Below, piece after piece: positions 18,159-62,640 of a DNA stretch of 64,000 bases. The position numbers and the translations under genes are program-made. Numbering within the stretch: the stretch's first letter is position 1; every line of letters begins with the position of its first letter. Under the pieces are notes generated by a model. It worked only from the letters and a program-made list of their open reading frames with translations. It ran no database searches and was not told the origin of the DNA. The stretch comes from Semisulcospira habei (Eukaryota; Mollusca; Gastropoda; Semisulcospiridae). The stretch spans positions 119,624,582 to 119,688,581 of the forward strand of contig BTPG01000002.1 of the NCBI GenBank assembly GCA_036245525.1. Reading direction: 5' to 3'.

Positions 18159-18684
18159 CTTTTCCTGGGGGAATAAGATAAGATATAAGTTTACTTACAT
18201 TTGTTTTATGTAATTGGAATTTTGTCAGATGTCAGTTGACAAGCACCCACAAGCGTAGCTTACTCTTATGAAACATAATGAAGTACAAAAAAGTGCATAT
18301 ACCTTAAATAATCTAATGTATTAACTAAAACTACATTATGTAGTAATAACAGCACAGATGGACACCTATTCATGGCCCTAACCGAAGACTGAAACAGAAA
18401 AAGGTTTTGGTCCAAGAGTCTGAAACATGAATTTTTCTCTAAAATGTATTTTTTTGAAAAATACTAACTGACACATTACTACTAGGAATATTTCGCTTAG
18501 CTTAGCAATTTTAGCCAAAAAAACTTGTTGTGTACCTCAAAACAGGGGAGGCAATCCCAAGGGGTGTCGTTACCAGGATACCCTGAGTGGCCTCCCCTGG
18601 TTTCCTATCCGGTGGCGCGCTCACTGTTTCCGGCCAGTCTCTGAGTCTTAGCTCGACTGCGGCAAGCGGGAAAGGTGGGAGGGA

Positions 18685-22827: not shown

Positions 22828-24585
22828 TCATCCTGTAGCAGGCGTGCTGAAAAAGCCTTGACTCCCGAAAGTATCCTGTAGCAGGCGCGCTGAGAAAGCC
22901 TCTGCTAGGTCCCTGAAGCCCGGAGGTTGAGGCAGAGACTTGAACCGCTTGGGTTGCCGGGGCACGTCAATCATCGCTGAAGCCTTCCTCTTAGTGGGCG
23001 GAGATGGAGGGAAGCACTCCGGGGGAAGGAAGGAGGCGATGAAGCGGGACGCCTCATCCAAGTAGTGACGAACCTGTCTGGTTGGCGCCGCGTCAACTGC
23101 TGCTGCAGGTGAAGACCGAGGGTTGCTAGGCGAAGAAGGGGAAACGTCGCCTCCGCCCAATGCCGATTCTGAATCCTCTGGGTGAAGGCCGAGCACTTCC
23201 TCATCGTCCACCGGGGTCCGCGTAAGCGGAAGAGCCGCAGGCCTAAATGCCGATCACATAGAGAGGACTGAAGAATCCCTAGTAACCACTGCAGACCGCC
23301 GCAGGGGGCCGGGTAAGCGTCAAGGGAAAGATGCTTGCGTACCGCTGCTGCCACCTGAGCGGCTCCTGTATCGACTTCGAGGGCGCCGAGGCCACGACGT
23401 CGACCCATCCCTGGTTGTCCGATCCGACGAAGGGCTAAACCTAGGCGAGGCAGTCGCCCGATGCCGCGAAACGCTCCATCGCGTACCTGATTTCGACTGC
23501 CAAACCGTGGAGGAGGAGATTGACGAGTCATCCCGTCATGAGGAGTGTCTACCGAGCGTCGACTCCATACGTGACCTATGCTGATATGTCTGTTTAAGGT
23601 TACATCCCTCTCCTCCTGCAGGTGCGCCCTAGTTGGTCGCACCGTATCGGCCCCCCAAGCGTCAAGGGGGCCAAAACCTCTGGGTGTCCCTCCCCAAGCT
23701 CCTATGATGAGGAGAATGTGCTCCAGAGGTCTGATCACGACAGGGAAGCACGTCCCGTCGGTTGGCTCGGTTGACTGAACGTCCGTCCTCAGTGGTGAGG
23801 ACTTCGGTCCCAAAATCATTGCCTTGTCTGGGACTCACATCTCGCCTTACGTTTCTCCTGCGAGGTGCCTGAGCTCCGTATGCCGACACATGCCTAGGGG
23901 ACGAATCCCGTCATGGGTGGTCTTGCATCTCCGAGGTCTCAACGAGGCGGGGTGGAGCTCTTGTGTCCGTTCTGTCCCTCCCTGAGAGGTGCATCGTAGA
24001 TGCGGCCCGGTGACTGCTCTGGTCCGGCCTAAGGCTGGCAGGCACTAACCTTTCAGAGGGGGGGGGGGGGGGGGGGGTCCCGCGCCTGGAGGGTGATAAT
24101 TCCACCCAACACCTTTACTGCAGGGGGACCGAGCTCTGTATGCTGACACATACCTAGGGGACAAATCCCGTCGCTGGCGGTCTTGCATATCCGGGGCCTC
24201 AACGAGGCGGGGTGGAGCTCTTGGTGCCCGGGCTTGAATGGGGGGCAAGCCCCGTTTCAAGCTGCTAGGCTCATTCATCCGCTCAGGGCGGAGCAGCGCT
24301 GTCCGAGGCACCGGAGGGGGGAGTAGGCCCCTTTTACGTGCCGACCAGTCCAAGATGTTAGGCTCTGCCTTCTTCTGCGCAGCTGCTTTAGTCGTCGGCT
24401 GTGTGAGCGGCGCCGGTCTATCCCTCCGGTAAAACGCCCACAGCTGCGACCATCTCTCTTCCTCCCACGTCACGCACTTGTCTCATGTCTGACTGGAGTA
24501 GCAGCCCGAGCAGGGTAGGCAGACATCATGGCCGTCACTAGGCCACTGGAAGGCACCACACTTCGTGCAGGTCCATACTTGAGTA
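22828..24585 (-). pseudogene. gag-like ORF1 of D2, N-terminal Cys array legible
   Basis: After an acceptor (CTTTGTTACAG|T at 24585, reverse strand) the frame reads S-T-Q-V-W then the Cys/His array (Cys at array positions 1, 4, 17, 20, 23 and 32, His at 14; position 29 is a TGA stop), followed by 'WSQLWAFYRRDRP' as in D4 and D5. A 21-base G run (24058-24078) interrupts the Pro/Ser-rich middle. The gag core 'PPTKRKASAMIDVPRQPK' is at 23010-22950. Not functional. Confidence 0.75.
24058..24078. repeat. G21 homopolymer in D2 gag region
   Basis: Twenty-one consecutive G. Other long runs in the window: C26 at 25377-25402, C19 at 26967-26985, C25 at 37921-37945, C16 at 40949-40964, C17 at 41111-41127, A28 at 49726-49753. 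Exact lengths may be unreliable in any assembly. Confidence 0.9.
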
Positions 24586-26900
24586 CTGTAACAAAGGACA
24601 GAAGAAGGCCGGAGAGAGAGCGGGGAGCCTCCGAAGACGGACCCCACTCCCGGTCGGCTTGCATTTATATATTACTGCCCGGTCACCGCTGCTGCCCGAT
24701 CATAGCCGACAGGAATCAGTAACCTAATCTTTACCTTGTCCTGGTTCAAACCGGTAATCCCACAGAGACCCAACACCAAGTAATCCACCGAAAACACATA
24801 GGTAATCCAATCACACTACACAATGCACCACACTGTATCCACGAAAGTCCGTAACACTAGAAATCCAAAGTATGTAGTGCACACAACGGTAATCCCACCA
24901 TCCACAGCCGGAGCACCCGAGATGCAAACGGCCTGTCCTGATGAGCTAAGCGAAGAGACTGGCGGGAAACAGTGAGCGCGCCACATGATAGGGAACCAGG
25001 GGAGGCCACTCGGGGTATCCTGGTAACGACACCCCTTGGGATTGCCTCCACTGTTGGAAGGTACATGAGTTTTTTTGGCTAAAATTGCTAAACTAAACGA
25101 AGTATTCCTAGTAGTAATGCCATCGGTAATGATTTTGAGAAAATAATAACATATCATTATCAAACTACTTAACTAGTGAACAAGAAAGGCAAAGCCATTA
25201 TGGCTCATGTGGACGACCAATATGTGACCTTTGTGACAATAAGTAAAGGCTCATGTGGACAACCAATATGTGTGACCTTTGTGACAATAAGTAAAGGGCT
25301 GGCTTCCGCAAGAGCAAAATCTATGTTTTCTCAAAATGTAAGCATTTTTCACACATCTGTCAAACCCCCCCTCCACCCCCCCCCCCCCCCCCCCCCCCCC
25401 CCGACCCTTGCAATGAGTCGACTAAATTAGTATGCACAGGAAGATGCTATCATCAGCTACATTTGTGCCAAATTTGATTGAAAAATTTGCAAAAATGTTC
25501 ATGCAATAATACCTACAATTTTATAACAAATTGGCATTTTACACACATTTGCCAGACTTTGACCCTGACCTTTCCGAAGGGTCATCCAAATTAGTATGCA
25601 TAGATAGGTCTTACCATCAGGTATCTCTGTATCAAATTTGGGTTTGAAGTTGTGAATAGTATTTGAGAAAAAAAAATCTTGTCAAAATATGGCTATTTTA
25701 GACATATATTTAAACGACTTTAACTTTTGATGACAGTACCAACTGCCAGGTGAGCCGTCTGAAGACTGTTGGGTGATCACAATCTGGCATGGCTTGTTGA
25801 CATCCCTACACATAAGCATGGCCACACACTCTACTGGGCTGTGGTCCGTAGTGAGGGCAGCATATTGTCCCTTAAAGCAGTTCAGGACTATCCTGGTCTT
25901 TCCAACCACAGTCTTGACACTTGCACTATTGCAGTTACCAGACCTCGCCCCTGTAAACGACTTGTGACGTCACAGAACATTCGCGCTATTTCGTCTACTG
26001 ATTTTCAGTCCGATGTAAAGGAGATGGCAGCAGCAGCAGAGGTGGGTCAGTCACCTACATTGGAGCCTGAGCTGCTTGTGGACGCCTACAACAACAGGCT
26101 TTGACAGGTGCTCGACCGACACGCCCCGTCTGTCACCAGGCTGGTGAGGGACCGACCATCCACCCCGTGGTTACACGATGTCAGAGAAGCTCGCCGCCGA
26201 CTGAGACACGCGGAGCGTCATTGGAGACGGATTGGTCTGACTGTCCACAGACAGGGATCTATGTGAAAGTGAGGGTTGAAGTAACAGCGGTCATGTAGTC
26301 TGCCAGGAGACAGTTCTACAAGGACAGGATCGACTCCAGCTTGTCACCCAAGCAACTCTTCTCAGTCTTCAGTAAGCTGCAGGGCAAGCCCTGTACCACA
26401 CCACTTCTGACGGATGTGCCAAGACATCTATCCTTTCATAACGTTTCTGTGACTTTTTCTTGGATAAGACTAATCACATCTGCTCTGAACTAGACTCATG
26501 TTCATGTGATCCCCCTACGTTTGGCGTGTACAACGGTCCTTCACTGTCTCATTTTGAGCACTGAGCAGGAGATCCATGAACTTATTATGAAGTCACCAAC
26601 AAAGAGCTGTGTGCTTGATCCCCACGTCCCTCGTGCAACAGTGTACTGATGATCTCCTCCCACAGATTATCACCATAGTTAATGTTTCTCTCTCTATGGT
26701 GCAGTGCCCACTCATTTTAAACATGCTGTTGTGACACCACTCTTGAAAAAGCCTGGACTAGACCCAAATGACTTGAAACATTTTAGAACTGTCTCTAACC
26801 TTCCATTTATTTCAAAGATTTTGGATAAGGTTGTTTTGAAACAGCTAAAAAGCCATTTGTCTGGAAACGGTCTTTTAGAAATGAATCAGTCGGCATACAG

Positions 26901-45400: not shown

Positions 45401-46593
45401 TTCGCCACACGCATGCCGGGATAGGGTGGTAAGGGGAGGCCACCCGGGCTCCTATACTTGGATCACCGGTGTCTCCTCCCCAGTTGTGTAGGGACACAAC
45501 TTTGGGCTGAAATCGTTAGGCTATAGAGTGTATTCCATATAGTAACGCCATCGGTAAGTATTTTTCAAAAAAATACATTTTAGGAAAAAAATTCATTTTT
45601 TTGTAGAATGTTAGTTTAAATCAGGATTTTTGCAAAACGTTTTAACCAAATTTGGCAGAAAGATAGCTGATGATAAGACCTTTCTGTGCATACTAGTTTG
45701 GTTCACTGTCGGTACTCAGAAAGGTCAAGGGTCATGGGATGTTGACAAAAGTGAAAAATGTAAATTTTGAGAAAACACAGATTTTGTGGGTACAAATGCC
45801 AACCCTTCCCTTATGTAATGTTAGAACACTTCCATATTTATTTCCTCAAAAACATTACCGATGACATGACTACATGGGAATATCTACTTCTAGGCTCAAT
45901 TTTAGCCTACTTGCCCGTTGTGTGCCCACACAACCCGAGAGGCCCTCGGGGAACCCCCAGAGGGGCCGAGAGTTATCTCCCCATACCTGCCTTCCCAGAT
46001 CCGGTCACGAGACCATTCAGTCTTTCTACTTCGCTCGTGGAGAGAAGACGTGTCTGGCCCGCGCTCTCGCTGCCCCGACCGGTCTTCTGCCTACCGACGC
46101 TTGTTGCCGACTTCGTGTGCTCTGCGCCCGCTTCTACCCTGCCTTCTACCTGGCCTTCTCTTCCTGCTTCGTTGGGCCACTTGCGGGGATTCTTCTGCTT
46201 CTGTGGACGGCGGTTTGACTGCCCTTCCCCCCCTTCCCTTCGTTGCAGAGGTAAGGCAGCGGTAGTTCCCTCGGCCGGCCCTCGGGCTGAGAGCCGGCTG
46301 CCTGTGGGTGCTTCCCTGCTTTTGCTTTGGGGTTCGTTTCAGTGCGTAGTGCCTGATTAGCTCACGGTCGGCTGTTGCCGTGTCGCGCCCGTTTTGCACG
46401 TGGGCCTTGGGCTCCGTGTGTGTTAGCCCGTTTAAAGCCCCGTTAGCCCTCCGAGAGTGCCCCATTACGCTTTCACCGGGAGCCCGCCTACGCTTCGATA
46501 ATGTCGTTGTGCTCCCGGTGCGATGACTTTAGGTGGCCGACGGACACTCACTCGGTCTCCCTACCGCGTTCGGTGGTTCCTCGGACCGCAGGT

Positions 46594-46624
<31 letters not shown>

Positions 46625-49600: not shown

Positions 49601-52532
49601 CCCAGATGCTCCGGCCGCACCTTCGTCGGTGGACCGGCCCTACGTGGCTAGCGTCGGAAGTTCCCTTAGCCTCTCCCCCTCCAGGCGGGCCCCTGGCCCT
49701 CACACTGGGCGCACACCAAGGGGGGAAAAAAAAAAAAAAAAAAAAAAAAAAAAGCACACCCACTGTCTGGAGATGCAGGCCGTATGGCGAGCCCTTCACG
49801 CCGGGGAGTACCTCCTCCGACACCAGGAGCTTCTCGTGCTTTCGGACGACACGATCGTGGTCGCTTACATCCAGAAGCTGGGTGGCACACGCTCCCCTGA
49901 CCTGTGTACGCTCCTCTACAGGAAGATGCGTTGGTGCGAGGACCGGAGCATTATCCTTCAAGCCCCGCACGTTCCCGGATGCCTAAATGTCTTGGCCGAC
50001 TCTCGGTCTCGCCGCGACCAACTCCTACACACGGAATGGACCCTGCGACAGGACATCTTTCAGATGATCTGCGCCCGCTGGGAGACTCCCCAGGCCAAGT
50101 CGTTCGCCACGAGGTGGAACCACCAGCTTCCCCTCTTCGTCTCCCCGATTCCCGACCACCTTGCCTGGGCTGTCGATGCGCTCTCCTTTCCCTGGGACGG
50201 ACTTGTGGCCTATACCGGTCCCCCTACCGTCCTCGTGCCCTAAGTCCTCCTCTAACTGCGGGGCTCTTCGGCGTTCCTCCTGTCGGTCGCACCGCTCGTC
50301 TGGAACCGCGCCTGGATCACCGACCTGCTCAGCCTCGCCACAGACCCGACCCTGCTGCTGCCCACCCCGTGGACCATGCTCAAGCAACCGCGCCAGCCGC
50401 TGTTCCACCCCTGCCTGGAGTGGCTCCTCCTTCACGCCTGGAGGTTGGGCGGCAAACCCTCGGAGCTAGAGTAGACTCAGATGCAGCTATGGAGGCGATC
50501 GCTGCGCCCCGGGGACTGTCGACCCTTCGAGCCTACGAGGGAACTGGCGAGTCCTCTGTTCCTGGTGTACCGATCTTGGCCTTACGCCCACGGATCTGAC
50601 TCATCCTCCGCTGGCGGACTTCTCTCTCTGGCTCTTCGAGACCAAAGCCTAACCCTCATCACGGTACGCGGTTACCTGTCCATGATGGCGGACACCTATC
50701 GTCACCTGGGACGACCCGATCCGGGCGCCTGCAAGGACCTAGCCGACCTTATGGGACACTTCGGCACCCAGCGCCTTACACTCCGCTCGCTCCTTCCTCG
50801 CTGGGACCTACCCTGGGTGCTCACGTGGTTGAACTCCGCCCGCTTCGTACCATTACCTTTGGCCCAGCTCGCGGACTTGGCACGCAAGACTTGTTTCCTG
50901 CTGGCACTTGCTACCGCTTCGCGCGGGAGCGAGCTACATGCGCCTTCAGCACGCCCTGCCGGTCTGCAGTTCCGAACAGACGGCTCCGTCCGGCTCCTCA
51001 CGGACCCGGCCTTTCTGGCAAATAACAGGTCGCCTTTAACTCCGCCTCAGGTGATCACCATTAGGCCGCTGAGAGACCGACCCCGGTCCCAGGAGACCAG
51101 GCTACAGGATCCCGTGCGCGCCCTTAAAATCTATCTGCGGCGATCTAAGCTCGTCCGCAGGGGGCGGTCGCGCCTCTTCCTACCTCTAAGACCCAAACAG
51201 CGTGACATTATAGCCCAGACGATCTCTTCCTGGCTCCGCTGGGTCATACGCTCCGCTTATCAAGAGATAGCCCTGAGGGAGCTAAGAGGCCGCACATTCT
51301 CGCACACGAGGTACGAGCTAGGGCCACGAGCGTCGCGTTGAGCGAAACGGCACTGTCAAGGACATCGTGGCAGCCGTGGGCTGAAACACCGAGTCGGTCT
51401 TGCCCGTTTCTACCGCCGGGACCTGGCTAGCCAGCGAGAGAATCTCGCACTGGGGGGGGGGACATCGCCGCGACGCAACACTCCCTCCTGGTGCCACCGG
51501 CACCGTAGGTTGCACTTCGCTAAAATTGTCGGGAGTGTGCCACGGGGTGGACGGCGTTGTCCTGTTGGGGGAGTTGTGGGCGGCACCCGCCTCCTCTTCG
51601 CAATTCTCCCATGTAGTCATGTCATCGGTAATGTTTTTGAGGAAATAAATTCATTTTTCTCTAAAAGGTATTTTTTCGAAAAATACTTACCGATGACATG
51701 ACTCGGATAACCCTCCCTCCTGCCCCGCTTGCCGCTTTCGAGCGAAGTATCAGACTGAATGGTCTCGTGACCGGATCTGGGAAGGCAGGTATGGGGAGAT
51801 AACTCTCGGCCCCTCTGGGGGTTCCCCGAGGGCCTCTCGGGTTGTGTGGGCACACAACGGGCAAGTAGGCTAAAATTGAGCCTAGAAGTAGATATTCCCA
51901 TGTAGTCATGTCATCGGTAAGTATTTTTCGAAAAAATACCTTTTAGAGAAAAATGAATTTCAGTGACCTATTGGAAGGTCAAGGTCACAAAGGTAATTAA
52001 TTATGTGGATCTGTCATGCATGTGAGCCTTGAGGGCTTTGCCATTCTTGTTCTTTCTTTTAACGTGTTTTCTGTTTCACAATAACATTTACAATGTATGC
52101 TTTCATCTGTGTCAGTGAGTGGAACTTAACATGTGCATAACGTTGCTGTTTCTCTCACAGAGAGGTTATCAAGCTGAGAGAGGAAAATGTCTACCTGAAA
52201 AAGTTGCTGCATGAAAAGGTAACAGTGTGACTATACTAGATCTAGAAAAATGCATGCAAAACTTTTATCTGCAGAAAGGTGCATTTGGATGGCAAGGGTG
52301 TGCTGTTTACTTATACAGTGAACTTTGTTTAATATTGATACATGTAATTATTTGTGGTCATGCAGGATCTCTGAAGAAGCTTCATTATACGTATGTGTGA
52401 CTTTTGATATACCCAATGTATCTAACATCATGACCAAAGTTAAAATTATTATGTGTGTCTGTGACCATAAAAGTCACATGTTTTCTTAAAAATGCTCTGT
52501 GTTTTATTTCAGGGCATTGGAAATAGCTCAAG
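33362..52532 (+). CDS. RNF212: RNF212/Zip3-like meiotic RING protein, six exons, 3' end outside window
   Basis: Exons: 33362-33470, 33991-34052, 34271-34345, 35860-35984, 52161-52218, 52513-52532. All have GT..AG borders and consistent phases (1,0,0,2,0,2), giving ~149 residues. Residues 7-57 form a RING finger (C-x2-C, C-G-H-x2-C-x2-C, C-x2-C). Next comes '[12 protein letters not shown]', matching the segment after the RING in RNF212/RNF212B, then a basic coiled-coil stretch ([19 protein letters not shown] and [13 protein letters not shown]). RNF212 proteins act as SUMO/ubiquitin E3 factors that stabilise recombination intermediates on meiotic chromosome axes; this role is taken from the family. 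Which of the two vertebrate paralogs it corresponds to is not decided. Intron 4 (16.2 kb) carries D6, D3 and an RTE LINE; D4, D7 and D5 follow exon 6. Confidence 0.87.
33991..34052 (+). CDS. RNF212: RNF212-like exon, second RING half
   Basis: Acceptor CTCAAACAG|GA, donor GGGAAG|GTAATT. Encodes the last RING Cys pair (CKMC) and a following Cys, [13 protein letters not shown]. Confidence 0.85.
34271..34345 (+). CDS. RNF212: RNF212-like exon, post-RING segment
   Basis: Acceptor TCATTTTCAG|ATC, donor ATGCAG|GTGACA; 25 codons reading [20 protein letters not shown] and on. The 'FF.xP' pattern followed by a helix is characteristic of the family. Confidence 0.85.
35060..35668 (+). mobile_element. 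3' fragment of a non-LTR retrotransposon
   Basis: The frame to the TAA at 35292 reads '[17 protein letters not shown]', '[19 protein letters not shown]' and '[14 protein letters not shown]', the C-terminal signature of many fish and mollusc LINEs. It ends in AATAAATTTCTTGAATCTTGAATCT, a short tandem 3' tail. 5'-truncated; in intron 3 of the RNF212-like gene. A 32-base direct repeat (34988-35020 and 35030-35061) immediately precedes it. Confidence 0.65.
35860..35984 (+). CDS. RNF212: RNF212-like exon, start of coiled coil
   Basis: Acceptor CATTTACCAG|ACC, donor TTGGAGAG|GTTTGC, phase 2. Basic N-terminal half ([15 protein letters not shown]) and a helical half with heptad-like Leu/Met spacing. 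Confidence 0.83.
37636..37745 (+). pseudogene. degraded N-terminal Cys array of D6 ORF1
   Basis: Read from the TGC in 'CTTGCTTTAGTGG', the frame keeps Cys at array positions 1, 17, 20, 29 and 32 and His at 14 but has a stop at position 8 and loses Cys 4 and 23. It is followed by 'CTIWRVDRW' where D4 has 'CAVWPELRW'. Confidence 0.6.
38304..40643 (-). mobile_element. RTE-like LINE inserted in D6
   Basis: Flanked by the 12-base duplication TATAAGATTAAA (38292-38303 and 40644-40655). The 3' end lies at 38304 with the CTTACTTACG complement of a GTAAGTAAG tail. 5'-truncated inside the endonuclease domain: the reverse strand at 40640-40440 encodes the end of an exonuclease-endonuclease-phosphatase fold with its 'SDHHLL' motif, then a small frameshift before the RT frame. 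Confidence 0.92.
38305..40401 (-). CDS. RTE-like reverse transcriptase, 698 residues, open but lacking endonuclease
   Basis: N-terminal third: helical linker rich in Lys/Arg/Glu. RT domain from about residue 205: '[16 protein letters not shown]' and 'NYRGITLL', motif A '[12 protein letters not shown]' (~residue 340), motif B '[12 protein letters not shown]', motif C '[10 protein letters not shown]' with the catalytic Asp pair. C-terminal 'FTYLGSIID' and 'WIGHSLR' boxes follow, then a basic '[12 protein letters not shown]' tail. The family carries out target-primed reverse transcription in the nucleus. The endonuclease is missing, so this copy cannot move alone, and the Met at 40401 is only the first in frame after the shift. 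Confidence 0.88.
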   Translation of the reverse strand: MLSNRFQALQELVNEEEAVTTEQQWKAVREVLNSTCKDTVGLRKHHHKDWLSAQTLKKIEARKQKKAAVNNSRTRAAKVRAQGEYSEANREVKRSIRADKRAYTDSLAAEAEKAAGSGNMKQLYDITRRLSGKYGHTERPVKDKEGKPIADRADQLDRWAEYFEELLNRPSPPDPPSDIQPAETDLPISCDRPSREEIRKAVAFLKNGKAAGPDGIPAESLKADLETTVEMLYPLFGKIWEEEVMPADWKEGYLIKLPKKGDLSKCSNYRGITLLSVPGKVFNRIILERMKSSVDPQLRDQQAGFRKNRSCTDQIATLRIIVEQSLEWSSPLYVNFVDYEKAFDSVDRETLWKLLRHYGVPTKLVRLIKSSYDGMTCRVIHEGQFTRELQVRTGVRQGCLLSPFLFLLAIDWVMKMTTEHRRSGIQWTLRTQLDDLDFADDLALLSHTHQQMQDKTTRLADILSQVGLTIHKQKTKTMRLNATREEPVLLAGTPLEEVESFTYLGSIIDKKGGTDADVRARIGKARAAFLQLKKVWSSRELSQHTKVRIFNSNVKAVLLYGAETWRLTKTTVNRVQTFMNSCLRRILKIHWPEKISNVRLWERTEQITAENEIGRRRWGWIGHSLRTPASSITRQALSWNPQGKRKRGRPRNSWRRDLQADIKRLGTTWSRIEGEAQDRSCWRSLVDGLYPGRGDRRK
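41279..42480 (+). pseudogene. gag-like remnant of D6
   Basis: A Ser/Pro/Arg-rich stretch then degraded pieces of the gag core in changing frames around 41550-42250. Two C runs with the same following words (CCCCGCCCCGTT..CCAGGCGGGCC) at 40949 and 41111 mark a local duplication upstream. Assigned by position between leader and RT. Confidence 0.5.
42480..43700 (+). pseudogene. RT/RNase H remnant of D6
   Basis: Legible blocks: '[20 protein letters not shown]' (42765-42825), the YLDDLLLRN block in another frame (42880-42905), '[14 protein letters not shown]' (42965-43005), and RNase H '[14 protein letters not shown]' (43558-43600). Frameshifts between nearly every block. Confidence 0.75.
44085..45110 (+). 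pseudogene. tyrosine recombinase remnant of D6
   Basis: Begins '[20 protein letters not shown]' (44085) and '[10 protein letters not shown]', then shifts to '[15 protein letters not shown]' and '[16 protein letters not shown]' (44420-44470). The H-x-x-R box reads AHEVQA at 44920 with the Arg replaced. The Tyr block 'FAHFYLRDL' is legible near 45020-45050. Non-functional. Confidence 0.72.
45220..45330. repeat. internal complementary region of D6
   Basis: Complement of the left terminus (CCATATAGTAATGCCATTGG .. AAAAAAAC) joined to the complement of the right terminus (AAATGAATTT .. TACTTACCGATGGCATTAC). Confidence 0.75.
46501..48672 (+). pseudogene. gag-like ORF1 of D3, rearranged
   Basis: N-terminal piece '[17 protein letters not shown]' (46504) then the AAT tract. 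A second start of the N-terminal block '[13 protein letters not shown]' at 46858. Gag core 47455-48085 ('[19 protein letters not shown]' to '[11 protein letters not shown]'). Then, instead of the RT linker, the N-terminal block returns ('DVCATWPE' at 48118 and '[10 protein letters not shown]' in the next frame) followed by another Arg/Ser repeat array to 48670. Core catalytic functions are not expected of gag, but the fusion is abnormal. Confidence 0.78.
46595..46624. repeat. (AAT)n microsatellite inside D3 ORF1 region
   Basis: About ten AAT units directly after the gag N-terminal stretch. The D1 copy has a shorter tract at 3031-3053. The tract replaces the second half of the Cys array present in D4 and D5. 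Confidence 0.95.
48290..49095 (+). repeat. ~490-bp tandem duplication in D3
   Basis: The order 'GCCACTGCTGCCACGCCCGC' .. 'TTCCGGAGGGTCTGTTTGCC' .. 'GGAGAGACGTCAGCC' .. 'GTTCCRCTKTC' occurs from 48308 and again from 48798. The first half occurs once more at 47041-47280. Confidence 0.82.
49079..50243 (+). pseudogene. RT (second half) and RNase H of D3
   Basis: Opens directly with '[13 protein letters not shown]'. YLDD reads 'NYLDGL', losing a catalytic Asp, and later RT blocks continue in two other frames. RNase H lacks its first catalytic block (CVDASLSGWG in D4), replaced by a 28-base A run (49726-49753). '[10 protein letters not shown]', '[13 protein letters not shown]' and '[12 protein letters not shown]' follow. 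Inactive. Confidence 0.83.
50430..51400 (+). pseudogene. tyrosine recombinase of D3 (frameshifted)
   Basis: Long open stretch 50481-51341 with '[18 protein letters not shown]', '[13 protein letters not shown]', '[11 protein letters not shown]' (first catalytic Arg retained) and '[12 protein letters not shown]'. One base change of frame just before the H-x-x-R box (AHEVRA is legible in another frame at 51303) removes the C-terminal catalytic boxes. Confidence 0.83.
51607..51705. repeat. internal complementary region of D3
   Basis: Complement of the D3 left end (TTTTTGAGGAAAT) directly joined to the complement of its right end (AAATTCATTTTTCTC). The join point predicts the circular junction ..GAATTT|ATTTCCTC.. 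and therefore the element borders used here. Confidence 0.88.
52161..52218 (+). CDS. RNF212: RNF212-like exon, coiled coil, isolated between D3 and D4
   Basis: Acceptor TTTCTCTCACAG|A, donor GAAAAG|GTAACA. Completes the Arg codon from exon 35860-35984 and reads [19 protein letters not shown]. The match in phase and coiled-coil character across 16 kb of transposon DNA supports the assignment. Confidence 0.82.
52513..52532 (+). CDS. RNF212: RNF212-like 20-base microexon
   Basis: Acceptor TTTTATTTCAG|GGC, donor TCAAG|GTAATA; reads G-I-G-N-S-S plus two bases. DIRS element D4 begins 8 to 11 bases into the next intron. Microexon status rests on splice signals and phase only. Confidence 0.6.
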
Positions 52533-52556
52533 GTAATATTTTTATTTCATCAAAAA

Positions 52557-52728
52557 CATTACCGATGACATGACAAATGGGAGTGTCTACTACGTGCTCA
52601 AATTCTAGCCTACGAACCCGTTGTGTGCACACACAACCCGGGAGGCACTCGGGGAACCCTCCAGAGGGGCCAAGAGTTGTCTCCCGGACCTGCCTATCCG
52701 GTTCCGAGTCACCTGACTCGCCAGTCAG
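52557..52728 (+). repeat. left inverted terminal repeat of D4
   Basis: Complementary to 58850-59016. Contains the self-complementary GTTGTGTGCACACACAAC (about 52619-52636), which can fold as a hairpin and is present in both repeats. Confidence 0.9.
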
Positions 52729-52950
52729 CTACGTAGGCTCACGACCTTCGGACGTGTTCTAGCCTCGCGCTCCCTTCGACCGGTCGGTCTTGGTGCTCGA
52801 GTTCGCCGTGACTTTGGCTTCGCCTGTTGCTTCGCTTCTGCTTCGCTTCTTGCTTCGCTGCAGCTTCGCTTGCGCTTCTTCGCTTGGCGTCCTCCTTGGT
52901 TGGCTTCGCTTGGCGGACCTGCTGGTTCCCGCCATTTCGCCGGTGGCGAC

Positions 52951-55620
52951 ATGGACGTCTCTTCTCCCGCTACCGCTTCGGCAGAGAGGTAGGATAGTTA
53001 GTTGGGCCCGAAGCCGGTCCCCGGGCGGGGTACCGGCCTGTGCCTTTGGACTCTACCTTGTTCGTGTTGTTGGGTTTCGTTGAGCGGGGACTCTTAGCTC
53101 GGCGGGGCCCTGGTGCCCTCGCCTTTCCCCTTTGGGGTGAAATTACTGGCTTCCCCTGGTAGCCTTCGGGGAGCATTGTTTAAACCAGCTGCGGCGCGTG
53201 GCTCATGTTGCATCTCCGGCCTGGCTGGGGTATGCTTGTTTCGAGAGCGCACTCTTAGCTTAGAGCGCTACAGCATTATTGCCTGGGGGCACGGCCTTTC
53301 GTCCCTATTGTCGTTTGGCCCGCCGTGTGATGGCCTTAGTCGCCTGCGCGGCGTTAAACCCAAATACCTAAACTAAACTAAACCTATTGTTGTTTGGCGC
53401 ACATTCCTCTCCAGCCTGGCTGGGGTAGGCTTTGTTCTAAAGACGCAAGCTTAGCTTAGGGCGCTATAACAGTATAGCCTGGGGGCACAGCCCGTTTGTC
53501 CATATCGTTCGGTACGGTTCCCCTTGGTAGGACGAGCCCTGTTGGTCTCGACCACGTACCGGCACGTTGTTTGTTTGGTGTGTTGCAGTGCCCTCCTGAT
53601 GACCTGCACGCAGTGTGGAGGTTTCCAGTGGCCCTCGGATTCGCACAAGGTCTGCCTGCCGTGTGTCGGCTGTACATCTGAGCGTTCTTGTGACGTTTGC
53701 GCCGTCTGGCCGGAGCTCCGCTGGGCCCAACTTTGGAGCTTCTACCGACGTGAACGCCCGACACCTGTGCCTGTTGCAAGACCTGCGGAAGTGCCGGCTG
53801 TCATCTCAGACACACCGACCGCTCTTGCCCCCGATGGCCCCAGTCTGGAAAGATCTCCACAGCGGACACAGCAAGGTAGTGTGCGGAGTCGGGAGTTCGA
53901 GGCGCGGATTCCCAGGAGGGAACGCGCTTGGACCAAGCCTTACGACAGGCAGAGAACCCATCTCGAGACAGAGGTCAGTTCGGAGAGACGTGCCTCGCGC
54001 CGTCCATGGTCAACCGGTCCCCACTCGTCTCCTAGGAAGGCCTTGGATCCCCCTCGGCCGCTGCGAGCCCGCCTCGCCACAGAGTCCGGCTCGCGGAGAC
54101 ATTCGCGCACACTCACCACACCACTACCTGTGTCCAGTTCCTCCTTGCGATCGAAGTCGGACCACCACTCTCGCGCTCCTTCGTGTGAGCGTCGTGAAGT
54201 TCGGGATTCTTCTCGTCATCTGGACCATGGACCTTCGCGCTCTACCTCTTCGCGGCGTTCGTCCCACGTTCCCCGCCGTCTGCCTCGTCCCGCCCGTTCC
54301 CCTTCCCCTCCCCCAGCCTCCTTCCTTCCTCCTCGTTCCCGAGGATCACGGTCTCCAGCTCGTAGTCGCTCGTCTGGTCGCCGCCGCCGTTCCCGCTCCT
54401 CTAGTGCGTCGCGTCGCCGTCGCGGACGTCGCTCTCCCCTGCGTGCTTCGGCGCCTTATGGCTCCCCTCGTCCTCGTCGAGCTGCTCGCTCTCGGAGTCA
54501 CGGTCGCCGTCCCTCTTCGACGGCTCTCGGCGGCGTGGACGACGATTCGTTGAGTCTTCTCCCTGATGATTCCATCTCAGTTCTCCTCGGAGGTCTCAGC
54601 CGCTCTCCTTCGCCGCTCTCTCCTTCGGATGCGTCGACAGCCCACGGGTTACCGGCCTCCTCCCGCACAGAGGTTCTTCTGGCCCTCGACGAGGTCGCTC
54701 GCCTCATCTCCGCCACGCTTCCGGCAGCGGACTGCCCTCCATCCCCCCCCCTGAAGAGGAAGCCTTCTGCCTTCGTCGACGCGGGTAGACAGGTAAAGAA
54801 GTTCAAGACTCTCCCTCAGCCCCCCTCCTTTCGTGAGCTTCGGGATGTGTTCTCGGCCCACCTGTTGTCTGACTCAAGAGACAGTAATTTCTTCTCGGAC
54901 CACAGATGGCCTCCGGACCTCGATATGTACTTCCGCCAGCAGTGGTACGCCGGCCATTCCCAGGCCTTCCTCTGCCCTCTCCCTCCGGTGGATCCAGCCG
55001 CCGTGGTTCAGGCGGGTGGGGCCTCTGCACTCAGACGCGCGCTCCCCGCGGGTTTGGACAAGACGGCTTCGCTTGTCAGGAATTCCTTGGCCTGCGCCGG
55101 CTTCATGGAGCTCCTTACGCAAGCCTTCCTCCGGCGCGTGGAAGATTCGTGGCACCCGTCCCTGACCCCTCTTCTTGGCGACCTCCTCGTCCTCGCTGAA
55201 GCGGCCAGCCGCGCCGCGTATCACTCTTCGGTCAACGCTATGGCTGCAGCCGCCAATTGTGATTTACTCCGCCGCGACGCTGTCCTGCAGGCCTGCCGGG
55301 GAATGCCTGCCGACCTGAAGACCCAGCTGCGTCGGGCCCCCCTCGGGGGACCCCTTCTCTTTGGTGACACCTGGCAAGCCGTCAAGGATTCCAATGCGGA
55401 CAGGTGGCCTCCCAAGTCTGTTCCTCGGCGCTTTCAGGCAGCCCGCAAGGCCGTGGGTCGCCCCCTGCGGATCTCCAGACCCGTCGCCCCGACGTCAACA
55501 ACCCAGCTGCAGTCCCTGCGTCGCCGTCGCCCCGCCTTCGGTCGCCCCGGCCAAGCTCACGCCCCCGCCCCCGCTTGGCCCCGTCCCGCCCGTCGCCCTG
55601 GGCGCGGGCGGGCTCAGTGA
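52951..55620 (+). CDS. D4 ORF1: gag-like protein, probably spliced
   Basis: Proposed exons 52951-52988 (ATG..GCAGAGAG|GTAGGA) and 53589-55620 (GTGTTGCAG|T), giving M-D-V-S-S-P-A then the main frame, ~690 residues. Without splicing the first useful Met is at 53599. N-terminal Cys/His array (C-x2-C-x9-H-x2-C-x2-C-x2-C-x5-C-x2-C, 53605-53700), 'LWSFYRRERP', a long Arg/Ser/Pro-rich region (about 54040-54540), then the DIRS gag core ('PPLKRKPSAFVDAGRQVKKF' at about 54748; 'LLTQAF', 'YHSSVNAM', '[10 protein letters not shown]'). Presumed nucleic-acid binding and particle protein. ORF2 overlaps its end by 260 bases in the +1 frame. Confidence 0.85.
52989..53588 (+). other. predicted leader intron of D4 ORF1
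   Basis: 600 bases from GAGAG|GTAGGA to GTTTGTTTGGTGTGTTGCAG|T. Removing it joins an upstream ATG exon to the Cys array in phase 2. The equivalent join in D5 (60490-60652) has the same phase, and D2 keeps the acceptor. Splicing itself is not observed here. Confidence 0.65.
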
Positions 55621-57700
55621 CTCCTCCCCTCCTCCGCCTCCGCCGGCCGTCTCGGGTCCTCCAGTCGGCGGCAGGCTCGCCCTCTTCAGCGACGAGTGGC
55701 GATTACTGATTCCAGAAGACCCGTGGATTTTAGACACTGTTTCCGGCGGCCTACGGATCTCCTTTCGTTCCCCTCCTCCTCTGCGTACGACTCCGCTGTG
55801 GACCGAGATCCCCGCAGACCCGCTCAAGGAGTGCGCCCTACGGGGGGAAGTCGACTCTCTCTTGAGGAAGGATGCCACAGAGGTTGTGCGCCGCGCAGAC
55901 TCGCTGGGATTTTACAGCAGACTTTTCGTCGTCCCCAAGCCTGGCGGCAAGTGGCGCCCAGTGATCGACCTCTCAGCCCTAAATCGCTTCATCGTGGCTC
56001 CTTCCTTCCACATGGAGACGGCCCGAGCCCTGCGTACCGCGGTGCGACCCATGGATTACGCCGTCAGCCTGGATCTCTCCGACGCTTACCTACACGTACC
56101 CATACATCCGGCCGCCCAGAGGTATCTGCGCTTCGCGTTCGATGGAACCGTTTACCAGTTTCGAGCCCTACCCTTCGGCCTCAACCTCAGCCCCTGGGTC
56201 TTCACCCGCTTGATGGATGCAGTTATGGCCAAGGCACGGCAGTCGTCTCTCAGCCCTATGTCCAACTACCTCGACGATCTCTTCCTGAGGAACCACGTCG
56301 AGTCCGTCTTGGAAGAGGACAGGGATACACTGATGCGTCTGCTGTCGCGACTGGGGTTCCTCCTCAACGTCGGGAAGTCAGATCTCACGCCCTCGCGCCG
56401 CTTCATTCATCTCGGAATGGATTTTGCCACCGATCTCAACGTTGTTCGCCTCCCGGATCCCCGGATTCGGAAGTTGGCCACCTTCGCCAACCAGCTAGCT
56501 CAGCAGGAAGCAGCTCCCGCCCGAGTTTGGCTTCAACTCCTCGGACTGATCAACGCAGCGGCGGACCTTCTCCCCCTGGGTCGCCTCTACGCCCGCCCCC
56601 TTCAGCTGCACCTCCTGCTTCTCTGGAGACCCTCTTCTGGCGACCTTACCCACCTGGTCCCGGTTTCCCCCCTGGTTCGCCCTCACCTTCTACGCTGGAC
56701 CGACACGGCTTGGTTGGCTTCGGGAGTCCCTTTGTCCTCCCCTCCCCCGCACCTCTCCCTGTGTGTCGACGCGAGCCTCTCGGGGTGGGGAGCCCACCTG
56801 CTTCCTCAATTCTCCTCGGCTTCCGGCCTCTGGCCCCCGGAGTTTGCGGACAAGCACAGCAATTGGTTAGAGCTGCAGGCAGTCTGGCAAGCCCTCTTCG
56901 TTTGGGAGAACCAGCTCAGGAACCAGCGGCTTCTCGTCCTCTCCGACAACTCTACGGTGGTGGCCTACATCCAGAGACAGGGGGGCACCCGATCTCCCGA
57001 CCTCTGTATGCTCCTCTTCCGTTTGATGCGCTGGGCCGAGGAACGCGACATTACACTCCTCGCACGACACATTCCTGGCCACTTGAATGTGTTGGCGGAC
57101 TCGCTCTCTCGCCGCGGCCAGTTGCTCCACACAGAATGGACGTTGCGCCCGGATATCTTCCAGATGATCTGCGCCCGTTGGGAGACTCCCTTAATCGACC
57201 TCTTTGCTACGAGGTGGAACCGCCAGCTTCCCCTCTTCGTCTCCCCGATTCCAGACCCGCTGGCCTGGGCAGTCGATGCCCTCTCGATTCCTTGGGACGG
57301 CCTCATCGCTTACGCGTACCCCCCAACAGTCCTCATTCCCAAGGTCCTCCACAAACTTCGAGGGAGCAACGCAGTCCTGCTTCTGGTCGCCCCGCTGGCT
57401 TGGGCCCGGTCCTGGACCACCGACCTACTCAACCTCGCCACCTCTCCTCCCCTGCGCCTTCCCACGCCCCGTTCCATGCTCAAGCAGCCCAGGCAGGCTC
57501 TCTTCCACCCTTGTCCCGAACGCCTGTCTCTTCACGCCTGGAGGTTGTGCAGCGCGCCCTCACCGCTCGAGGCTTCTCTGGTGCAGCAGTGGAGGCAATC
57601 GCTGCAGCCCGCAAGCCTTCCACCCGGCGTGTTTACGAAGGGAAGTGGCGCGTCTTGTGTGCCTGGTGCGACGCCCGTCGCCTCCTACCCACCGGACTGA
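55361..57700 (+). CDS. D4 ORF2: reverse transcriptase and RNase H
   Basis: The first ATG in frame lies inside ORF1, so a frameshift or reinitiation start is possible; conserved sequence begins near 55690. RT: 'VPKPGGKWRPVIDLS' (55930), motif A 'SLDLSDAYLHVPIH' (56067), 'LPFGLNLSPWVFT', motif C 'NYLDDLFL' with both catalytic Asp (56264). RNase H: 'CVDASLSGWGAHL' (56764), 'LELQAVWQAL', 'VLSDNSTVVAYIQ' (56937), 'GHLNVLADSLSR' (57078). The C-terminal '[19 protein letters not shown]' block is typical of DIRS elements. Copies the element RNA and removes the template. Full-length, no stop. Confidence 0.93.
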   Translation: MVTPGKPSRIPMRTGGLPSLFLGAFRQPARPWVAPCGSPDPSPRRQQPSCSPCVAVAPPSVAPAKLTPPPPLGPVPPVALGAGGLSDSSPPPPPPAVSGPPVGGRLALFSDEWRLLIPEDPWILDTVSGGLRISFRSPPPLRTTPLWTEIPADPLKECALRGEVDSLLRKDATEVVRRADSLGFYSRLFVVPKPGGKWRPVIDLSALNRFIVAPSFHMETARALRTAVRPMDYAVSLDLSDAYLHVPIHPAAQRYLRFAFDGTVYQFRALPFGLNLSPWVFTRLMDAVMAKARQSSLSPMSNYLDDLFLRNHVESVLEEDRDTLMRLLSRLGFLLNVGKSDLTPSRRFIHLGMDFATDLNVVRLPDPRIRKLATFANQLAQQEAAPARVWLQLLGLINAAADLLPLGRLYARPLQLHLLLLWRPSSGDLTHLVPVSPLVRPHLLRWTDTAWLASGVPLSSPPPHLSLCVDASLSGWGAHLLPQFSSASGLWPPEFADKHSNWLELQAVWQALFVWENQLRNQRLLVLSDNSTVVAYIQRQGGTRSPDLCMLLFRLMRWAEERDITLLARHIPGHLNVLADSLSRRGQLLHTEWTLRPDIFQMICARWETPLIDLFATRWNRQLPLFVSPIPDPLAWAVDALSIPWDGLIAYAYPPTVLIPKVLHKLRGSNAVLLLVAPLAWARSWTTDLLNLATSPPLRLPTPRSMLKQPRQALFHPCPERLSLHAWRLCSAPSPLEASLVQQWRQSLQPASLPPGVFTKGSGASCVPGATPVASYPPD

Positions 57701-58611
57701 CTAACCCACAGCTAGCGGACTTTCTCCTATGGCTCTTCGAGGTCCAAGGTTTGGCGCCCATCACCATCAGGGGATACTTATCCATGGTCGCCGACACGTA
57801 CCGTCATCTCGGCCTTCCAGACCCCGGCGCCTGTAAGGACCTCTCCGACCTCATGTCCAGCTTCAGCCTCCAACGTCCGACTCAGCGTTCTCTTGTTCCT
57901 CGCTGGGACCTACCTTGGGTCCTGACGTGGCTGAATTCTTCCCAGTTCGAGCCACTCGCTCTAGCCCCTCTGGCAAATGTGACACGCAAGACCTGCTTCC
58001 TTCTAGCCTTGGCCACCGCGTCCAGAGTTAGCGAGCTACACGCTCTTTCTACCCGCCCAGACTGCCTCCAGTTCAGGGCAGATCGCTCCGTGCAGCTCTT
58101 AACGGACCCCAGCTTTATTGCCAAAACAAGGTCGCCCCTAACTGCTCCACAGATCATCACCTTGCGGCCCCTGGGAGGGCCTGCCTGCTCTCCGGAGACT
58201 CGGCGACAGGATCCCGTGCGTGCCCTACGCATCTACCTGCGCCGTACCAAGGTTACCCGTAGAGGGCGCTCCCGCCTCTTCCTGCCCATACGCCAGGGCA
58301 AGACTGATATCACAGCCCAGACGATCTCCTCCTGGCTGCGCTGGGTAATACGATCGGCATACATGGATCTCTCCCCACGCGTAGCGCAGAGACTGAAGAT
58401 CCACGCACACGAAGTACGCGCCATGGCCACGAGCGTCGCATTCGATCGGAACTGCGCTGTCAAGGACATCGTGGCCGCGGTGGGCTGGCGAGCAGAATCT
58501 ACCTTCGCTCGTTTCTACCTTCGGGATCTGGCGGGACAGCGAGACAACCTCGCCTTGTTGGGGGACCTCACGGTGGCACAGCACTCCCTCCCGGCGCTGC
58601 GGGCGCCGTAG
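57502..58611 (+). CDS. D4 ORF3: tyrosine recombinase
   Basis: The frame is open without a stop from 55696, but recombinase sequence starts only near 57502 ('SRLEVVQRALTARGFSGAAV'). N-terminal SAM-like part ('VYEGKWRVL', '[14 protein letters not shown]'), then the catalytic domain with Arg in '[12 protein letters not shown]' (58018), His and Arg in 'HEVRAMATS' (58411), Trp in 'VGWRAES' and Tyr in 'FARFYLRDL' (58506), ending TAG. Integrates the circular DNA product by strand exchange without target duplication. Overlaps ORF2 by 0.2 kb in the -1 frame and has no good Met nearby, so -1 frameshifting from ORF2 is a plausible expression route. Confidence 0.9.
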   Translation, partial: LPPLSRTPVSSRLEVVQRALTARGFSGAAVEAIAAARKPSTRRVYEGKWRVLCAWCDARRLLPTGLTNPQLADFLLWLFEVQGLAPITIRGYLSMVADTYRHLGLPDPGACKDLSDLMSSFSLQRPTQRSLVPRWDLPWVLTWLNSSQFEPLALAPLANVTRKTCFLLALATASRVSELHALSTRPDCLQFRADRSVQLLTDPSFIAKTRSPLTAPQIITLRPLGGPACSPETRRQDPVRALRIYLRRTKVTRRGRSRLFLPIRQGKTDITAQTISSWLRWVIRSAYMDLSPRVAQRLKIHAHEVRAMATSVAFDRNCAVKDIVAAVGWRAESTFARFYLRDLAGQRDNLALLGDLTVAQHSLPALRAP

Positions 58612-58705
58612 GTACGCACCTAGCTCGTTACCTGGGAATTAGCAATGGGAGGACGGTCTTGGTCTCCGGTAGTACCGGGGCGGCACCCTCCTCCTATTCG
58701 TGATT

Positions 58706-58803
58706 CTCCCATTTGTCATGTCATCGGTAATGTTTTTGATGAAATAAATGCATTTTTCTTTAAAAGGTATTTTTTCGAAAAATACTTACCGATGACATGA
58801 CAC
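58706..58803. repeat. internal complementary region of D4
   Basis: The first half is the complement of the left end (CTCCCATTTGTCATGTCATC .. GATGAAAT), the second half the complement of the right end (AAATGCATTTTTC .. TACTTACCGATGACATGAC). The fusion point near 58746 predicts a junction GCATTT|ATTTCATC that fits both genomic borders. Confidence 0.9.
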
Positions 58804-58849
58804 GGAGGACCCTCCCACCTGCCCCGCTTGCCGCTGGTGAGCCTAGTAT

Positions 58850-59016
58850 CTGACTGGCGAGTCAGGTGACTCGGAACCGGATAGGCAGGTCCGGGAGACA
58901 ACTCTTGGCCCCTCTGGAGGGTTCCCCGAGTGCCTCCCGGGTTGTGTGTGCACACAACGGGTTCGTAGGCTAGAATTTGAGCACGTAGTAGACACTCCCA
59001 TTTGTCATGTCATCGG
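58850..59016 (-). repeat. right inverted terminal repeat of D4
   Basis: Complement of the left repeat. Beyond it the right end adds GTATTTTTCGAAAAAATAC (59019 onward), a near-palindrome absent from the left end but conserved at the right ends of D2, D3 and D6. Confidence 0.9.
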
Positions 59017-59083
59017 TAAGTATTTTTCGAAAAAATACCTTTTAAAGAAAAATGCATTTTTATTTTGTCAGTGTTTGTATTTG

Positions 59084-59875
59084 TTTCCTCAAAACCCTTA
59101 CAGATGACATTACTAATAGGAAGATACACCTAGCTTATCAATTTCAGCCTAAGAACCTACACAACCAGGAAGGCGACTCTAGGGCGCCGTAACCATGGGC
59201 CCTGAGTAGTCTCCCGTCCCTCCCTATCCGGTCACGTGTCCAATGGTGACACGCCAGTCTTTTCGCTTAGCTTACCGTGAACGGTTGTGTTCAAGCCTAT
59301 TGGATCTTCGACTGTGTACAGTGTGACCGGTCGTTTCATTACTCGTGGTTTCCTTCGCTCTTGGACTCCGTTGCGGCAAGGGTTGCCTCTGCTTGGTTGG
59401 CTGTGCCTTCTTGGACTCCTGCCTCTCGGCCGGTGGCTTCACCAAGGAACCTACTGCGAGGTCTTTTTTCACTCAGGGAGTGAGCAACCGGTGCCGAGAC
59501 ACACGGGTCATCAGGGACTGCGCTGTGCACCCTTTGTGGCAGGTTCCCTCCGGCCTCGCAGCTATGATAAGATATAAGACCTCAGTTCATGCCCTCGACC
59601 GGTGGATGGCCCGGGCGGCGGCATCGACCGTGGGCGCTTTTGCTCGTACGATCCTTAACTAAGAGAAGAAGAAATTTTCGAACGCGTGGTGAAGCAGTGT
59701 TGCGCGTTGGAAGTGTGCTCGGCCATTGCCAGGGGCCGTAGATCGATACCACGCTTGGGGTAACCTCAATGGTTCAGCAGTGCATTTTGCTTTGGCCACT
59801 GATCTTCCGAGCTGTTCTGATTATACGATATTGTCCTGTGCAGGCCCAAGTACTACAAAGTAGATGTCGAGGTTT
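59084..59875 (+). mobile_element. DIRS-type element D7, 5' part, interrupted by D5
   Basis: Begins GTTTCCTCAAAACCCTTACA after TTT (59081-59083), 23 bases from the end of D4, and continues with a terminal-repeat-like leader ('GATGACATTACTAATAGGAA', 'CGCTTAGCTTACCGTGAACGG'). No ORF1 coding blocks are reached before D5 starts at 59876. If D5 inserted into it, the rest lies beyond the window; it could also be a deleted remnant. Confidence 0.6.
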
Positions 59876-60481: not shown

Positions 60482-62640
60482 ATGGCCAGGTAAGGTCTTG
60501 GTGTTTGCCAGCGACAGGCGCCTTTGGCGCCGGCCGGCGGCATCACTCTTGGAATTTCGTTTACTCATCGCGGAGTTTCGTGCTCGGTTGCACTTGTCAC
60601 GTGGCCTATCAGCTACGCCCGGTCGCCTTTTCTTTTCGCCTATATGTTGCAGTTGTCAAGTCCGCACCTGCACCCGTTGTGGCAATTTCCAGTGGCTGAG
60701 TGATACGCATGTGGTATGCCTCCCCTGCTTCGGTTGTTCCTCCGGCCGCACCTGTGACATCTGTGCACCCTGGGTAGAAGAGCTATAGTCACAGCTCTGG
60801 AGTTTTTATCGGCGTGAACGACCTACGCCGTCCCGCAGCCTCACACATGCCTCGGCCCCAGACCGGTCAAGACGCACCCGTGCTGCTGTTTGGAGACAGC
60901 ACATGAAGGATCCCCCCTTGCGCACCAACTTGCTCAAGTCTGGTCCGCAGCGAGTTCGCTCGCCCCGCTTTGAGGAAAACAAACGGCTGCCAAGCCCTGA
61001 CGATAGGGGACGGACGACTCCCCCCTTGCGCACCAGTTCGCTCGAGCCTGGCCCGCAGCGAGTTCACTCGCCCCACCTTGCGGAACACAAGCATCACAAG
61101 GAGAAAAGTAAGCCATGCGCCGTCCCGACAACGGACCTTCAGCTTCGTCTTGCGGCCCACGACAGGCGACCCCTGGAACGCGACAGACCGGACACAGCCT
61201 CTGGACCTTGGATTCCCGCTCTCGCAAACGGAGCCCTCGCCCACGCGTTTCTTCTCGGACTGCGGACTCCCGCCAGCAGCCCCGCGGCTCTTCGTTCCCG
61301 GACCCCCAGCGTCTTCGCCCGCCCGGCTCTTCGGTCTCTTCCCACCGTTCTCGCTCTCCTCGCCCGGTGTCCTGGTCTGCTCCGGGCTCAAGGACTCTTC
61401 GACCTCATCCTCGGATTCCCCCACGGGCCTCGGAGGATCGTTCTGGCAGTCGTCGCGCTTCCCGCTTGGTGGCCTCTTCCGTCGTCCGCCCTTCCCCCTC
61501 TCCTGCTTCTCGGCCTGGACCATTCCCTCTCCCTCCCCGGCGGGGCTCCCCCCGCTGCCCCCATCCCCCCTCCCCGTCATGCCTTCGGCAACGCTCTCAC
61601 TGCTGCTCCTCCCCCCATGGGTGCTCGCCCCACCGGACTCGCCGTTCCCGCTCATGCCATCGCAGTCGCTGTCCTCGGACTCGCTCCTCGTCGCGGTGGA
61701 GCCCGCTGCCTTGTCCCCTCAGCGCCGTCCTCCCACGCCGCCTGAGGAGGATGACACCCTCAACATCTCCGCAGAGGATTCCGCTTCAGCGCTTCTTAGC
61801 CACACGCTCGCTTGCCGAAGGCTCCTTCGTTGCCTACGCTTCGGACAACTAGGGCGGAGACCCTGTGCTCCCTGGATGAGGCCACGTGCCGGGTTGCTTC
61901 GTCTCTTCCCCCGGAAGCCTGCCCCTCCCTCCCCGGCCCCCAAGAGGAAGCTCTCGGCCTTGTGGGTGCGGATCGGCAGACTAAGAGGTTCAAGTCCTTG
62001 CTGCAACTTCCTAGGTTCCAAGGTCTTCGCGACGCCTTCTCCGCTCTCCTACAGCAGGGCTCCGGCTCCGATGCGGTCTTCTTTCATATCGCCTTTCAGC
62101 AGAGTTGGCACGCTGGACACTCGCAGAGCTTCGCTACCGCCCTCCCAGCGGTGGACCCGCCAGCACAGCTACAAGCAGGTGGACTTCGCGCCGTTGTGTC
62201 CCACCCGGTCTTGAACGGACAGCAATCCTCATCCGCAACGCTCTCACCTATGCTGGATTTCTCGACTTAGTCTCGCAAGCTGTTGTCTCTCGAGTGGAGG
62301 AGGCCTGGCACCCGTTGATCTCGCCGCTGTTAGGGGTCATCCTTGCCTTGGCCGTGGCCACCAACCGGGTGGCTTACCACGCTTCCGTCAACGCCATGGC
62401 CACTGCTGCGAATTGTGACCTTCTCCACCTGGATGCCGTCCCTTCCATCTGCCCTGATCTTCCGCCGGACTTACGGAGACAGCTGCGACAGGTTCCTATC
62501 GGCGTTCCGTTTCCGAGGGCCTCCTGCTCTCGTTCTGGACGCCGCCATCCCTGCGACGCAGCCGTCCCTGCGATGCAGTCTCGTGTGGATTTCCGCCCCT
62601 TCAGACCAACTCCAGGCAGCCGCTCTTCGAGGAGAGATCG
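60482..62640 (+). pseudogene. D5 ORF1: gag-like protein, spliced start, later frameshifts
   Basis: ATGGCCAG|GTAAGG (exon 60482-60489) joins after ATATGTTGCAG|T (60653) to read M-A-S-C-Q-V-R then the Cys/His array with all eight metal-ligand candidates (60669-60765), 'CAPWVEEL' and a TAG at 60786. The 'FYRRERP' equivalent (60804) and an Arg/Ser/Pro-rich region follow in shifting frames. The gag core is legible at 61930-62500 ('QEEALGLVGADRQTKRFKS', 'GFLDLVSQAV', 'AYHASVNAM'). Frameshifted and not expected to work. Confidence 0.75.

Follow-up and report, generated by a model that had tools for sequence, protein, structure and literature searches.

Intronless genomic copies point to a shared leader intron in three diverged families of DIRS1-type retrotransposons of Semisulcospira habei

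Introduction

Three diverged families of DIRS1-type retrotransposons, represented by the elements D4, D5 and D2 in a 64,000-base stretch of the genome of Semisulcospira habei (the window; contig BTPG01000002.1, positions 119,624,582 to 119,688,581), appear to have a spliceosomal leader intron in common, at the same site in each, with the spliced RNA acting as the ORF1 messenger and the unspliced RNA as the genome. The probability given to this reading is roughly 0.85. The approach relies on the expectation that splicing of the intron, in an element that reverse-transcribes its RNA, will leave some genomic copies without exactly the intron. Spliced junctions were found at 35 places in total in the three families, and the reversed control patterns gave 0 matches each. 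Because each family has copies lacking exactly the intron, these loci demonstrate that the intron is removed precisely and that spliced RNA is sometimes copied back to the genome, as has happened several to many separate times. The intron is kept at about 98% of the counted junctions in D4, D5 and D2. An earlier note on this DNA had read ORF1 as split by a leader intron, and the spliced genomic junctions of all three elements support that reading.

Results

Structure of the elements

The coordinates of the features are collected in Table 1. The ends of D4 are delimited by 12 intronless copies, whose left ends correspond to 52534-52542, each in its own flank, and whose right ends reach 59059-59064 in the four (of 12) that were checked. 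The terminal repeats are 98% complementary over 181 bases (52552-52732 against 58846-59026), and the stretch 59037-58837 is matched at 96-97% by the left ends of D4 copies. In the internal complementary region, 58706-58748 pairs with 52541-52583 and 58746-58802 pairs with 59003-59059. Judged by this pairing, the combination of inverted terminal repeats and internal complementary region is the DIRS1-type layout, and D4 is like DIRS1-like elements in these features as well as in its ORF1, its reverse transcriptase and, tentatively, its recombinase-like frame. The Pfam search returned an RVT_1 match at E 5.6e-21 in the piece 55676-57697, a weak Phage_integrase match (E 0.06, below the cut-off) in the recombinase-like region and no family for ORF1. 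The translation of the recombinase-like frame contains R...HEVR...Y, a putative tyrosine-recombinase motif. No relative of ORF1 at E 0.001 or better was present among the 7993 candidates scored in the protein collection.

The proposed gene structure places a short first exon with the ORF1 start codon, ending in AG/GT, before an intron that ends inside a Ser codon six codons ahead of the Cys array. The structure described in the earlier note was confirmed. D4 has a 38-base ATG exon ending in GAGAG, a 600-base intron at 52989-53588 and ORF1 resuming at 53589; D5 has exon 60482-60489, a 163-base intron at 60490-60652 and exon 2 from 60653; and in D2, on the minus strand, the acceptor is followed by exon 2 at 24585. 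All three elements agree in phase 2, in the Ser codon and in the spacing of five codons between it and the first Cys of the array. The leader exon of D2, absent from that note, was located at 24742-24735 without a start codon.

Table 1. Features of the D4, D5 and D2 elements in the window
Feature	Position	Strand	Basis
D4, DIRS1-type retrotransposon	52541..59060 (right end approximate)	+	Termini of copies
D4 left inverted terminal repeat	52543..52742	+	Pairing with right end
D4 right inverted terminal repeat	58837..59037	-	Pairing with left end
D4 internal complementary region, matches both termini	58706..58802		Pairing
D4 leader exon, carries ORF1 start codon: MDVSSPATASAE + AG	52951..52988	+	38 bases; joined to 53589 in 12 natural copies
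D4 leader intron, 600 bases, GTAGG...TTGCAG, phase 2	52989..53588	+	Exactly absent from L009-L020
D4 ORF1 after splice, N-terminal Cys array	53589..55620	+	Open frame
D4 reverse transcriptase frame	55319..57700	+	Stop-to-stop frame; RVT_1 match
D4 tyrosine-recombinase-like region, within frame 55621-58611	57334..58611	+	Sub-threshold Pfam match
D5 leader exon ATGGCCAG	60482..60489	+	96% mean column identity, D5 and 27 copies
D5 leader intron, 163 bases, phase 2	60490..60652	+	Spliced junctions in genome
D5 ORF1 after splice; stop at 60788 in window copy	60653..60788	+	Open frame
D2 leader exon position	24735..24742	-	Window copy without start codon; ATG in 5/8 fetched relatives
D2 leader intron, 149 bases, phase 2	24586..24734	-	Alignment with 8 relatives; spliced junctions
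D2 ORF1 start after splice, up to stop in window copy	24483..24585	-	Open frame

The argument of the earlier note that chance would not give this pattern is weak. In dinucleotide-shuffled leaders, an ATG...AG/GT pair in phase 2 occurred in 437 of 1000 (D4) and 350 of 1000 (D5), or 35-44%, and in 46 and 26 of 1000, respectively (3-5%), when a GTRAG or GTRGG donor was required. The leader of the D2 window copy contains no such pair. Since chance pairs are frequent in shuffled leaders, the window alone is only suggestive, and these frequencies favor an explanation without splicing, in which the ATG, GT and AG are chance motifs of the leader. Two results make that explanation practically untenable, namely the 35 junction places in three families against controls of 0, and the leader of the D1/D3-type elements of the window, in which the single GT-AG junction that was guessed and tried (the leader has GTAAGG) had 0 matches in the genome.

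Spliced junctions and intronless copies of D4

For the D4 family, a 30-base joined-exon pattern was searched with up to 3 mismatches in the 1.98-Gb genome of 507 contigs. The exon-exon junction matched without mismatch at each of 12 places, distributed over six chromosome-size contigs, and the reversed-pattern control had 0 matches genome-wide. With the donor junction at 538 places, the spliced share of the counted D4 junctions is 12/550 (2.2%). The exons touch with 0 bases between them in all 12 intronless copies, which lie behind 12 different 5' flanks, and translation from the leader ATG meets no stop in any of them over the 306 codons read. In the four copies checked at the right end, the distance between exon 2 and the element end matches that of D4 within 0, 0, 1 and 7 bases.

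Among the first 28 intron-bearing D4-like loci, the exons are separated by 598-601 bases in 27, and the remaining one (L040) is without exon 1 in reach; intron length is 406-603 bases in 30 further copies of the family. The intron starts with GTAGGATA and ends with TTGCAG in 58 of 58 intron-bearing rows, of which 30 were chosen by exact donor match. Whereas L001-L008 and L021-L039 were picked by likeness to D4, the selection of these 30 loci required an exact match spanning the exon 1 end and the donor, so that conservation is tested independently only by the first 24 bases of the exon. Exon 1 is unchanged in 64 of 70 rows. When D4 is compared with the six most diverged copies of the family, 0-1 of the 38 bases of exon 1 are changed, exon 2 has 4.7-6.4% differences, the intron has 9-16% differences plus 86-206 gap bases, and the leader before exon 1 differs at 11-33 of about 374-394 bases, plus gaps. 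The D4 intron contains a pair of direct repeats, each about 100 bases long (53213-53311 and 53408-53508, about 80% alike), which the diverged copy L068 also retains.

A tree of 70 D4-family copies (12 without the intron and 58 with it; L040 dropped) was built from the leader and exon 2 with 1320 columns kept. It contains at least 11 intron-state changes, nine of them forced by well-supported branches, which is about the expectation for random labels (11.2), and the intronless copies are scattered. The most diverged of them, L015, belongs to a subfamily whose exon 2 differs from that of D4 by 4.7-6.4%. The row L048 is on a long branch, and its leader is dissimilar. An earlier 40-row tree, in which the intron-bearing rows were D4-like only, gave 3 changes, 1 of them forced, and a p-AU of 0.003.

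The D5 and D2 families

The D5 spliced junction was matched at 11 places (up to 3 mismatches) and the donor junction at 465, a spliced share of 11/476 (2.3%), with 0 matches for the junction and donor controls; a narrower initial junction pattern had found 3 places. Of the 11 places, seven distinct loci were fetched, L103 being the same as L109 and L105 the same as L106. At all seven, exon 1 directly abuts exon 2 and the matches reach the 5' end of the element at 59872-59874. The match to the D5 leader is continuous up to the junction in five, and the stretch just before the junction does not align to D5 in the other two (L104 and L110). Across D5 and 27 diverged copies, mean column identity is 0.96 in the exon and 0.98 at the donor; the corresponding values are 0.81 for the leader, 0.89 for the intron body and 0.93 for exon 2. 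Among the 27 copies, the start codon is changed in L080 and L084, the donor is changed or missing in L080, L082, L094 and L097, and the acceptor AG is changed in L076 and L095. The D5 tree of 34 rows, from which L091 was dropped as no acceptor was found, contains at least six intron-state changes, four of them forced.

The D2 spliced junction was matched at 12 places (up to 3 mismatches) and the donor at 596, giving 12/608 (2.0%), and the junction and donor controls again had 0 matches. Six of the 12 loci were fetched and all six are precise; near the junction, the leaders of these copies belong to more than one subfamily type, as judged by eye without a tree. In an alignment with eight relatives, the exon ATGACAAG is followed by GTAAA and the acceptor TTACAG by TGCTCAG, which reads M-T-S-A-Q-V-R-T-C. 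The leader ATG is present in L114, L115, L116, L118 and L119 and missing in D2, L112, L113 and L117, and the splice sites have decayed in some copies of the family. Aligning the ORF1 starts of related elements, a check proposed in the earlier note, thus bears out the exon and splice sites in D4 and D5, while in the D2 family the ATG is found in five of eight relatives and lacking in three and in D2 itself. Of the eight relatives, L112 and L113 are the closest to D2; as the ATG is missing in all three, this subclade may have spread without it.

The spliced fractions of the three families are nearly equal (2.2, 2.3 and 2.0% in D4, D5 and D2), although the search patterns differ in stringency. 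By copy identity, D4 is young and D5 and D2 are old.

Could the intronless copies descend from a single event? One loss (or gain) of the intron, later spread by descent or gene conversion among copies, is very improbable. Counts of changes on a tree cannot separate gain from loss, and young copies presumably recombine easily, both of which favor it; it is opposed by the rejection of a single clade of intronless copies in D4 (p-AU 0.0002, 70-row tree) and in D5 (p-AU 7.6e-54), and by the different subfamily variants near the junction in the intronless D2 copies. Repeated gains are a poor fit as well: in the D4 family, subfamilies differ more in the intron than in exon 2, which agrees with one old intron.

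Start of ORF1

In D4, an in-frame ATG (MTCTQC) lies just past the acceptor as residue 4 after the splice, and ORF1 could start there without the leader exon. The intron would then be only a 5' UTR intron and exon 1 an upstream ORF, and the D1/D3-type elements, in which the start ATG of ORF1 is adjacent to the Cys array, offer a parallel. This is nonetheless quite unlikely, given that D5 and D2 are without such an ATG, that the leader ATG is kept at the matching place in D5 copies and in five of eight D2 relatives, and that all 12 processed D4 copies have an open frame from an in-frame leader ATG. No in-frame Met occurs in the 45 codons of D5 after the splice (the window copy has a stop), in the D5 open frame upstream of the splice point, or in the first 102 residues of D2 after the splice (where the window copy also has a stop). 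Since there is no in-frame ATG between acceptor and array, an ORF1 of D5 or D2 that includes the complete Cys array depends on the leader exon and would presumably be made only from spliced RNA. This dependence is less strict in D4, which has a second ATG immediately ahead of the array. In unspliced D4, a stop follows 13 codons past the leader ATG and three more ATGs lie inside the intron. Three ATGs upstream of exon 1, at 52565-52577, would compete with the leader ATG if transcription begins before them.

Templates for new copies

With its GT...AG ends and its precise removal, observed through processed genomic copies, the leader intron has the features of a U2-type intron. Most new copies would be made from unspliced RNA, since the intron would be gone in one round if all RNA were spliced before copying. 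Splicing would be partial, or the spliced and unspliced RNAs would be sorted. The spliced RNA would be the ORF1 messenger and the unspliced RNA the genome, as in retroviruses and in elements of the copia, BARE and EVD type; such a division of labor between the two would be the simplest model.

Models of DIRS elements use sense genomic RNA. This argues against the alternative that the usual template is antisense RNA or some other never-spliced form and that the intronless copies record rare use of sense RNA, and so do the four intronless copies with complete ends, which show that a full-length copy can be made from sense RNA. The alternative draws on Penelope elements, for which an antisense template was proposed to account for intron retention (PMC3846280); for D4, D5 and D2 it is considered unlikely.

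The preferred reading of spliced messenger and unspliced genome can be extended, tentatively and at somewhat less than even odds, to a retrovirus-like switch. Splicing would give ORF1 its start and mark the messenger, the intron-keeping RNA alone would be a proper template, the switch would be sufficiently ancient for all three diverged families to share it, and the approximately 2% of processed copies would be a leak in sorting. A packaging-type structure in the intron was also considered and rejected, because the predicted folds are not clearly unusual relative to expectation (z -0.27 for D4, for which an ordinary fold indicates no such structure, -1.26 for the D5 body and -1.89 for the D2 body).

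Other features of the window

Two D1/D3-type DIRS copies, at 1-3900 on the minus strand and 45800-51900 on the plus strand, lie in opposite orientation with long shared arms that are 94-99% alike, and both contain a (TAA)n-flanked stretch early in ORF1. A LINE-like reverse transcriptase is located at 38308-40431 on the minus strand (RVT_1, E 1.5e-35, and DUF6451), with an inverted partial copy of the element, 98% alike, at 4235-5364 on the plus strand. A 781-residue open frame at 15852-18194 on the minus strand, with no match to Pfam or to PDB sequences, may be an exon of a host gene. Related repeat arrays at 29261-30782 and 36346-36990 are mutually inverted, and neighboring repeats are often about 150-166 bases apart.

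Discussion

Unspliced RNA is the genome and spliced RNA the messenger in retroviruses, and introns have been reported in some Ngaro elements. In retroviruses with a leader donor, splicing removes gag, whereas in D4, D5 and D2 it would give ORF1 its start. The conserved leader intron is what sets these three elements apart from DIRS1-like elements. Intron-bearing retroelements are already known; a leader intron in DIRS1-type elements is without a report among the matches listed. In term counts over the main texts of a 2011 overview of DIRS1 (PMC3266345) and a study of DIRS in Xenopus (PMC9210276), 'intron' and 'splic' occur 0 times.

Further parallels come from copia, BARE1 and EVD, for which two sources describe a spliced Gag RNA beside the unspliced full-length RNA (PMC3735527, PMC8892269). 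As in the model for D4, D5 and D2, a spliced RNA for the structural protein is accompanied by an unspliced full-length RNA. In those elements, however, the effect of splicing is that the short RNA does not yield pol, while D4, D5 and D2 have a leader intron, the removal of which would supply the start codon. The short form of BARE1 is reported in RNA and not in the genome (PMC3735527), whereas D4, D5 and D2 have processed genomic copies. Penelope-like elements keep a spliceosomal intron through transposition (PMC3846280); they share intron retention with D4, D5 and D2 and differ in reverse transcriptase class and integration.

When ORF1 of a DIRS element is annotated from genomic frames, its true start can be overlooked if an intron separates the start codon from the rest of the frame. 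The balance of translation against copying in DIRS elements is, to our knowledge, unexplored. The 35 spliced junctions in the genome allow splicing to be established without RNA and the share of spliced templates to be counted. As the start codon lies across an intron that is nevertheless kept at about 98% of junctions, sorting between messenger and genome RNA becomes directly testable in these families. If the switch reading is true, the approximately 2% of processed copies in each family would be a measure of how often that sorting leaks.
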